A stretch of 64,000 nt of DNA from Vibrio quintilis (lineage in GTDB: Bacteria; Pseudomonadota; Gammaproteobacteria; Enterobacterales; Vibrionaceae). Position numbers and translations under genes: made by a program. Under the pieces are notes generated by a model. It was given only the letters and a program-made list of their open reading frames with translations, had not been told where the DNA came from and did no database searches. The stretch is taken from NCBI RefSeq assembly GCF_024529975.1, contig NZ_AP024897.1:1240001-1304000 (forward strand), written 5' to 3'. Shown in pieces: positions 53,801 to 55,961 of the stretch; the stretch's first letter is position 1; every line of letters begins with the position of its first letter.

Positions 53801-54151
53801 GTCTGTTCCGGTCTTTATCGCGATGTGTGGAAAGTTACCCCAGGCCGAAGGGATGGTCAAATAGAACCCGTCCGAATTTAAATCTGCAAAGATAAAAATT
53901 TTCCAGGTTCACGGAATCCGGGGCTCGTATTTGATATCTATTCTGTCGGATTCATTCATGAAATCCTTGAACACCCCTGCTACGCTCTAAGAAACAGATT
54001 TACATGAGATAATTTTTCAGTTGTATTTTTAACGGTCGTTTCAGTATAAACTGACGAGGTTCTTCAATAATTTTATTAAAGATTTGATGAAATTGCCGAT
54101 ATTTGAGTCAGAGAACTCTCAAAAAGTGAATGGTAGCATGAGGAGTGCTTC
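53801..54151 (+). promoter_or_regulatory. xseB–pomA intergenic region with a sigma-28 (FliA) promoter
   Basis: At 54078–54103 the sequence reads TAAAGATT, a 10-bp spacer, then GCCGATAT. This closely follows the flagellar sigma-28 consensus TAAAGTTT-N11-GCCGATAA with one base fewer in the spacer. It lies about 50 bp before the pomA GTG, which has AGGAGTG upstream. This fits late-class control of the motor genes. The remainder must hold the xseB promoter on the minus strand; none was clearly seen. Confidence 0.78.
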
Positions 54152-54916
54152 GTGGATTTAGCAACACTGATTGGCCTGGTTGGCGGCTTGGGTTTTGTCG
54201 TCATGGCGATGATTTTGGGTGGCGGACTGATGATGTTTGTCGATGTCACCTCTGTTTTGATTGTTATCGGCGGTTCATTTTGCGTCGTGATGATGAAGTT
54301 TACTCTGGGGCAGTTTTTTGGTGCCGCTAAAATTGCAGTGAAGGCATTCATGTTTAAAGTGGATGAGCCTGAGGAATTAATTGCCAGAATCGTTGAAATG
54401 GCAGATGCTGCGCGTAAAGGCGGATTTCTTGCTTTGGAAGAGATGGAAATCACTAACAGTTTCATGCAAAAAGGCATTGATTTGCTGGTGGATGGCCATG
54501 ATGCTGACGTGGTTCGTGCTGCGTTGCAAAAAGATATTCTTCTGACAGAAGAGCGGCATGAGTCTGGCGCAAGTGTGTTTAAGGCTTTTGCTGATGTGAC
54601 TCCGGCGATGGGAATGATCGGGACACTGGTTGGTCTGGTTGCGATGTTGTCAAACATGGATGACCCGAAATCTATCGGGCCGGCGATGGCGGTTGCGTTG
54701 TTGACAACGTTATATGGTGCAATTCTGGCGAACATGGTGTTTTTCCCGATTGCGGATAAATTGTCGCTGCGTCGCGGACAGGAAACGTTGAATCGCCGTT
54801 TGATTATGGACGGTGTACTGGCCATTCAGGACGGACAAAACCCTCGGGTGATTGACAGCTATCTGAAGAATTACCTCAGTGAAGGTAAGCGGATGATTGA
54901 CGTTGACAATGAATAA
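54152..54916 (+). CDS. pomA: Flagellar motor stator protein PomA (sodium-driven)
   Basis: PomA with PomB forms the sodium-conducting stator that drives the polar flagellum. The 254-residue product has four membrane segments (about residues 5–25, 33–50, 150–170 and 180–200), the large cytoplasmic loop (about 55–145) that contacts FliG, and MDLATLIGLVGG at the start. The TM3 region DVTPAMGMIGTLVGLVAML is typical. The start codon is GTG. A sigma-28-type promoter precedes it, and pomB follows 17 bp later. Confidence 0.97.
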   Translation: MDLATLIGLVGGLGFVVMAMILGGGLMMFVDVTSVLIVIGGSFCVVMMKFTLGQFFGAAKIAVKAFMFKVDEPEELIARIVEMADAARKGGFLALEEMEITNSFMQKGIDLLVDGHDADVVRAALQKDILLTEERHESGASVFKAFADVTPAMGMIGTLVGLVAMLSNMDDPKSIGPAMAVALLTTLYGAILANMVFFPIADKLSLRRGQETLNRRLIMDGVLAIQDGQNPRVIDSYLKNYLSEGKRMIDVDNE

Positions 54917-54933: not shown

Positions 54934-55899
54934 ATGGATGAAGAAGAGAATTGTAAATGTCCGCCCCCCGGTGCACCTGCCTGGATGACGACGTTTTCCG
55001 ATTTGATGTCGCTGTTGATGTGCTTTTTCGTATTGCTGCTTTCATTTTCCGAGATGGATGTTCTGAAGTTCAAACAGATCGCAGGGTCGATGAAGTTTGC
55101 GTTTGGTGTGCAGAACCGGCTGGAAGTGAAAGATATTCCGAAAGGAACCAGCGTGATTGCTCAGGAATTCCGTCCGGGCCGGCCGGAGCCGACTCCGATT
55201 GACGTGATCATGCAGCAAACGATAGATATCACCCAGCAAACACTTGAATTTCAGGAAGGTGATGAAGACTAGGCGGGTGGTACGCAACGGGAAGCCGGTG
55301 ATTTGACCGGAGGACAGTCTCCGGAGGATTCTACCAAAGACAATCAGAACGAAGAATCGATTGAGGAGCGTCAGCAGGAATCCGTTTCTACCGTTGATGA
55401 AATGGAAGTGGTTTCTGAAAATATTAAGCAGGCACTTTCCCGTGAGATTGAGCAGGGTGCGATTGAAGTTGAGAATTTAGGTCAGGAGATCGTTATCCGG
55501 ATTCGTGAAAAAGGCGCATTCCCGAAAGATTCAGCATTCCTGCAACCGAAATTCAGACCGCTGGTCAGACAGATTGCAGAGTTGGTGAAAGATGTACCGG
55601 GTGTTGTCCGGATTTCCGGCCATACTGATAATCAGCCGCTTGATTCAGAACTGTATCGTTCAAACTGGGATCTTTCCGCGCAGCGTGCGGTTTCTGTTGC
55701 TCAGGAAATGGAGAAAGTTCCTGACTTTGATCACGGGCGGCTTGAAGTGCGGGGCATGGCGGATACGCAGCCTGTTGCTTCCAACGATACTGCGTTAGGC
55801 CGGTCGGAAAACCGTCGTGTGGAAATCAGTATCTTGCAGGGTAAACCTTTGTATAGTGATGAAGTGAAGGCTGTCACGCCGGATCAGACGAATCAGTAA
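54934..55899 (+). pseudogene. pomB: Flagellar motor stator protein PomB, interrupted by an in-frame TAG at codon 113
   Basis: Read through one TAG (55270–55272), the frame encodes 321 codons, the normal PomB length. Before the stop are the cytoplasmic N-terminus, the single TM with the ion-binding Asp (TFSDLMSLLMCFFVLLLSF; Asp at about residue 24) and the plug/linker region to EFQEGDED. After the stop the same frame continues AGGTQREAGDLTGGQSP and then the OmpA-like peptidoglycan-binding domain (ISGHTDNQPLDSELYRSNWD, GRSENRRVEISIL). From memory, V. cholerae PomB has an ordinary residue at this point (ESDRAGG). An AGG or CGG-type codon changed to TAG would explain it. There is no frameshift. 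As it stands the truncated product (112 aa) lacks the anchor domain, so polar motility should fail unless the stop is suppressed or is a sequencing error. Confidence 0.85.
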
Positions 55900-55926: not shown

Positions 55927-55961
55927 AAAGGCAGGCTGTCAGAGCCTGCCTTTTGTTTTTT
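55927..55961 (+). terminator. Terminator after pomB
   Basis: The 10-bp stem AAAGGCAGGC / GCCTGCCTTT with loop TGTCAGA is followed by a long T run. Confidence 0.92.

Follow-up and report, generated by a model that had tools for sequence, protein, structure and literature searches.

Probable recent inactivation of the polar stator gene pomB of Vibrio quintilis by a single nonsense codon

The gene pomB of Vibrio quintilis, which encodes a subunit of the polar flagellar stator, carries one amber codon in an otherwise open frame, and it was probably inactivated very recently by this single nonsense substitution, located in the linker that joins the plug to the peptidoglycan-binding domain. A young nonsense mutation is the most likely origin of the stop, with an error of the assembly as its main rival.

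The pomB locus

The locus lies in a window of 64,000 nucleotides, which spans positions 1240001-1304000 on contig 1 (4,117,920 bases) of a genome of 5.85 Mb assembled in 3 contigs. The relevant features, numbered from the first nucleotide of the window, are:

54077..54102, plus strand: putative sigma-28-like boxes 5' of pomA, TAAAGATT at 54077 and GCCGATAT at 54095
54152..54916, plus strand: pomA, 254 codons, GTG start, intact (NCBIfam NF006527 PomA, 470 bits, the cut-off being 341)
54934..55269, plus strand: pomB codons 1-112, encoding the N-terminus, membrane helix, plug and start of the linker (open reading frame list and profile matches)
55270..55272, plus strand: in-frame TAG at pomB codon 113 (translation; opposite a sense residue in all 29 relatives of the alignment)
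55273..55899, plus strand: pomB codons 114-321 and TAA, encoding the remaining linker and the OmpA-like peptidoglycan-binding domain (in an intact frame that is presumably not translated)
55927..55953, plus strand: terminator-like hairpin with an 11-pair stem, followed by a T-rich tail, 3' of pomB

Translation of positions 54934-55899 gives 321 codons ahead of the terminal stop, 320 of them open and one a stop codon. This bears out the claim of a first-pass annotation that the TAG at 55270-55272 ends PomB after residue 112 in a gene whose frame, length and OmpA-like domain are intact around it. Open reading frames in the pomB frame comprise 112 aa at 54934..55272 and 198 aa at 55303..55899, the open frame behind the TAG counting 208 codons. 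The 112-aa part matches the family MotB_plug (PF13677) in residues 7-57 with 70.2 bits over a cut-off of 24, the 198-aa part matches OmpA (PF00691), and both match one MotB-family profile, NF006508, in consecutive order (positions 1-112 and 120-300 of 304). The OmpA-like domain is encoded in frame behind the stop and does not share a polypeptide with the plug, in agreement with the earlier description of a truncated product that keeps the plug and loses its anchoring domain. Upstream and on the same strand, pomB is adjoined by a pomA of the PomA subfamily, the arrangement that defines a PomA/PomB stator, and the profile score listed above also supports the proposed integrity of PomA. The boxes of the putative promoter are spaced by 10 bases, compared to 11 in the sigma-28 consensus. 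The hairpin behind pomB is not above chance count, with 2 such sites found in the region and 2.3 expected in shuffles. A plasmid search using the pomB locus gave no match.

PomB in relatives and the age of the stop

The interruption of pomB is confined to this genome among the sequences compared. A first survey covered 60 relatives, 36 of them congeneric, in addition to the own genome, with loci taken for the best 30 rows, one of them its own. In the alignment of the other 29, a comparison that the first-pass annotation had suggested, PomB is encoded in one frame throughout, and an identical residue stands opposite the stop in 29 of 29. A larger set of 89 loci was gathered for PomA or PomB from relatives in two collections, so that some species occur twice, and a peptide motif served to recognise PomB, leaving out 19 loci without it (L062-L079 and L082, mostly from other genera). 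In all 70 loci with a recognised PomB, sister species included, the protein is encoded in a single frame of 306-343 codons, and where codon 113 was read, the common residue is found in 59 of 60 loci, with L059 differing. On the level of the genus, 205 of 227 genomes (own included) match at 1e-50, and every match listed, except for that of the window itself, shows a frame that is open for at least 306 codons. Seven of the listed matches, with open frames of 317-326 codons and extending to query residue 193-196, count one stop inside the match, which we take as the terminal stop of the gene, as confirmed in one of them (G175, locus L156). The 22 genomes without a match at this threshold may be without this stator. 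A PomB that is naturally made in two parts, which would have offered a different view of the locus, was absent from the 70 recognised loci and from the genus matches listed, and this possibility was therefore rejected.

Among the genus matches listed, the best after the window itself (95%) comes from the sister genome G061, whose PomB is intact. The presumably corresponding protein, P0002, is an intact PomB of 321 aa recorded from Vibrio aerogenes CECT 7868, to which the C-terminal 198 residues of the window PomB are 95% identical. Since the DNA identity around pomB is 84.9% in an alignment of 10.4 kb, we regard the sister and the present genome as different species. At codon 113, the sister carries a residue unlike nearly all others, which is one substitution away from a stop, whereas the common residue is at least two substitutions from TAG. 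The stop thus probably arose within the sub-clade, and, judged from these codons, it appears to be the second of two successive changes at this position.

The pattern of substitution suggests that the stop is young, since dN/dS (Nei-Gojobori, against the sister) stays low on both of its sides, with 0.011 in codons 1-112 (dN 0.008, dS 0.717) and 0.021 in codons 114-321 (dN 0.021, dS 0.988). With seven outgroup sequences, the amino acid differences after the stop are assigned to the window branch in 3 cases and to the sister branch in 1, with 4 unpolarised, compared to 0, 1 and 1 before the stop, an excess on the window branch that is too small to demonstrate relaxed selection. If, as an upper case, all 3 + 4 changes had followed inactivation, 7 changes in 480 nonsynonymous sites (0.015) would stand against half of dS (about 0.49), so that pomB would have been inactive during no more than about 3% of the branch, a rough estimate with dS near saturation. 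The low dN/dS after the stop would equally suit a pomB that was never inactivated, owing to a sequence error or to read-through. With intact orthologues, a single disabling change and no further decay, the gene has the properties of a recent nonsense pseudogene.

A general decay of the genome was considered and rejected, as pomB is the sole clear internal nonsense among the compared open reading frames, which were judged from coordinates. In this comparison, 233 sister ORFs found a match in 284 kb of the genome (48 in the window, 47 in the lateral and 138 in the polar flagellar region), 214 of which are covered to 85% without a stop, leaving 19 flagged. Stops were shown in 13 of these, near the start (first 26%) or in the last residues in 10 cases, which we read from the coordinates as differences in start site or end, and in two short ORFs of 95 and 117 codons (68% and 55% identity), which are probably not real genes; the thirteenth is pomB. 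The remaining six lack coverage only, three at or near the edge of the compared DNA, one over tRNA genes, one due to a start-site difference and one in a fliI-like lateral gene that is broken in the sister and whole here.

The TAG is located in a pentamer of the class that can be produced by deamination of a methylated cytosine. The genome contains C5-methyltransferase genes, one of them adjoining a vsr gene (at C1:188195-190279 of this genome, G000, L192 and L196, vsr lies directly 5' of a methyltransferase gene of 513 aa). The frequencies of CCAGG and CCTGG relative to expectation are 0.55 and 0.49 in the sampled 284 kb, compared to 0.93 and 0.95 for CCCGG and CCGGG. An origin of the stop at a deamination hotspot would nevertheless be a guess on motif grounds, with the methylation-type motif absent at codon 113 of the sister pomB; a literature search on this idea found nothing.

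Alternative explanations of the stop

If the amber codon were suppressed or read through, some full-length PomB would still be made, an explanation that agrees with the intact and constrained frame after the stop and with the purine that follows the TAG, purines in this position being favourable to suppressor tRNAs. Suppression is unlikely because a CUA anticodon is absent among the tRNAs found and release factor 1 is intact. The suppressor tRNA that the first-pass annotation had envisaged elsewhere in the genome did not turn up in any of the 85 tRNA genes found and read with ARAGORN, in a search that scored 150 of 311 candidates and from which a degenerate tRNA could escape. Release factor 1 is encoded at full length (contig position 3257474-3258562), and TAG terminates 25 of 152 ORFs of at least 250 aa in the sampled 284 kb, counted without an overlap filter. 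The same two findings led us to reject a general recoding of TAG, as had been argued before. Since the PomB frames recognised in 70 loci are likewise free of internal stops, we consider read-through very improbable. An even slighter chance is given to the idea that the codon is tolerated as a leaky or reversible switch, which would cut the dose of the polar stator in a dual-flagellate Vibrio relying on its lateral motor; the codon itself shows no sign of such a mechanism.

The least credible of the alternatives is a synthesis of PomB in two separate proteins, with the second translated from an internal start such as the TTG at 55303, where the 198-codon ORF begins, although a protein database contains its product as P0001. 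The relatives with a naturally divided protein that this would call for are missing, with a split in 0 of 70 recognised loci, and the C-terminal fragment, by our reading, starts with a polar linker and contains neither membrane helix nor signal peptide, so that it would miss the periplasm, where the domain works. More weight has to be given to a substitution error of the assembly in a strain whose pomB is intact, which we regard as unlikely but far from negligible. Such an error would account for a constraint after the stop that matches that of a functional gene (dN/dS 0.021), for the full-length pomA and polar motY, for the polar cluster, where the comparison of a 160-kb region with the sister detected no clear internal stop (138 of 146 sister ORFs with a match), and for the absence of clear internal nonsense codons other than that of pomB from the 233 matched ORFs. 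It is opposed by the quality of the assembly, which in its 3 contigs is 100% complete with 0.13% contamination, and by the ORFs compared, in which frequent nonsense errors are not evident. Moreover, the change in pomB is a substitution, whereas errors of long-read sequencing are mostly indels. The two halves of the protein, P0001 and P0121, are each found on 2 contigs, but as the second contig may stem either from an assembly made independently or from a duplicated record, this occurrence speaks neither for nor against an error. From the three options initially offered for the stop, the recent loss thus fits best and a base-call error remains as a contender, while suppression has become unlikely.

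The second flagellar system and comparison with known systems

The consequences of a recent loss of pomB have to be viewed in light of two flagellar systems. The polar system includes FliG (350 aa), FliR (260 aa), FlhA (721 aa), FlhF (486 aa), a full-length MotY of 297 aa and, by reading, several flagellins, and the genome contains a Sel1-repeat protein of 261 aa, with motX itself not pinned down. A lateral cluster at 606-645 kb of the contig encodes its own FliG, FlgH, MotY-like, MotA and MotB-type proteins, and 46 of its 47 matched sister ORFs are intact in this genome. Its MotA and MotB-type proteins are full length, the former matching above its cut-off and the latter scoring 264 bits against LafU and 220 bits against MotB, both under the curated cut-offs. 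The presence of this second system with its own stator implies that cells without the polar stator may still be motile.

In the sister, a lateral gene at C1:629452-630812 (G061, L173 and L174) is split by a frameshift, and its counterpart here is an ORF of 453 aa at C1:643690-645051, which by reading is fliI-like. Together with the stop in pomB, each of the two species would thus have one flagellar system bearing a lesion. Other observations concern the organisation of the flagellar regions. The genes flhB (by reading) and flhA, which are neighbours in most vibrios, are about 54 kb apart (G000 C1:3154625-3208903, L143-L145), in an order that matches the sister. Within the lateral cluster, three similar ORFs of 424-425 aa have signal-like N-termini by reading (G000 C1:625216-629426, L141). 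Elsewhere, at G000 C1:653352-655039 (L142), a tandem array of three ORFs, each of 145 aa, was noted; they share identical first 40 residues at a spacing of 625 bases and resemble what we take to be IS200-type transposases.

The expected products of the locus are PomA and a PomB stub of 112 residues that would retain membrane helix and plug. In V. alginolyticus PomB, motility requires residues 121-315, and it is the OmpA-like domain that attaches the stator to peptidoglycan (PMC9093738). A product ending at residue 112 would lack all of the region 121-315. A stator containing the stub would be expected to stay plugged and unanchored and to generate no torque at the polar flagellum, and with the plug retained, a leak of sodium appears unlikely. 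The lateral motor, which presumably operates independently of the polar stator, could carry movement with its own MotA and MotB-type proteins and might thereby have weakened the selection against a loss of pomB. If real, the stop would add to the natural cases in which a Vibrio with a second flagellar system has lost its polar stator, and it is young enough for the reason why the polar motor became dispensable to be a question worth asking. An erroneous stop would instead call for correction of the record, as databases now list pomB as two proteins (P0001 and P0121). In either case, our understanding of PomB is unchanged, and the locus looks like an ordinary loss, whether of very young age or due to mis-sequencing.

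With respect to PomB of other vibrios, a subunit of the sodium-driven polar stator and member of the MotB family, the window shares the order pomA-pomB and the domains but differs by the TAG at codon 113. Truncated proteins in other vibrios render the case less unusual. A search with the N-terminal part among 542 candidate PomB-like proteins of 62-196 aa gave matches for 538, and among the best 120 of these, which were considered here, many come from short contigs and may be incomplete because the contig ends within the gene. Besides the window's own, P0122, P0125, P0127 and P0128 from this set are located on contigs of at least 3 Mb. The truncated proteins P0122 from V. anguillarum (130 aa), P0164 from V. 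maritimus (137 aa) and P0125, P0127 and P0128 (158 aa each), all encoded on large contigs, resemble our case in that helix and plug are kept and the OmpA domain is lost. In contrast to the in-frame stop of the window, they end by leaving the frame in the linker, due to a frameshift that is either real or an error, four of the five at one place after TG or TGG and the fifth slightly later, as judged from the proteins. Loss of the PomB C-terminus by mutation of the linker, or a sequencing error in this region, thus apparently recurs among vibrios. A run of 5-7 G in linker codons for TGG near codon 126 is found in 6 of 70 PomB loci (L013, L022, L034, L037, L046 and L047, with L022 and L034 apparently from one species in two collections), at the position where the four truncated proteins depart from the frame, and this run could be a hotspot of slippage or sequencing error, perhaps phase-variable. 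The titles and opening lines of abstracts on pomB nonsense, pseudogenes, frameshifts and natural loss of motility in Vibrio contain no report of a natural pomB amber. Close parallels are laboratory motility mutants of V. alginolyticus, such as YM19 with a nonsense codon in flhA or VIO5 with one in motY2 (PMC10956519). As in our case, a single nonsense codon is there held to disable one of two flagellar systems, although these mutants originate from mutagenesis and are affected in genes other than pomB.
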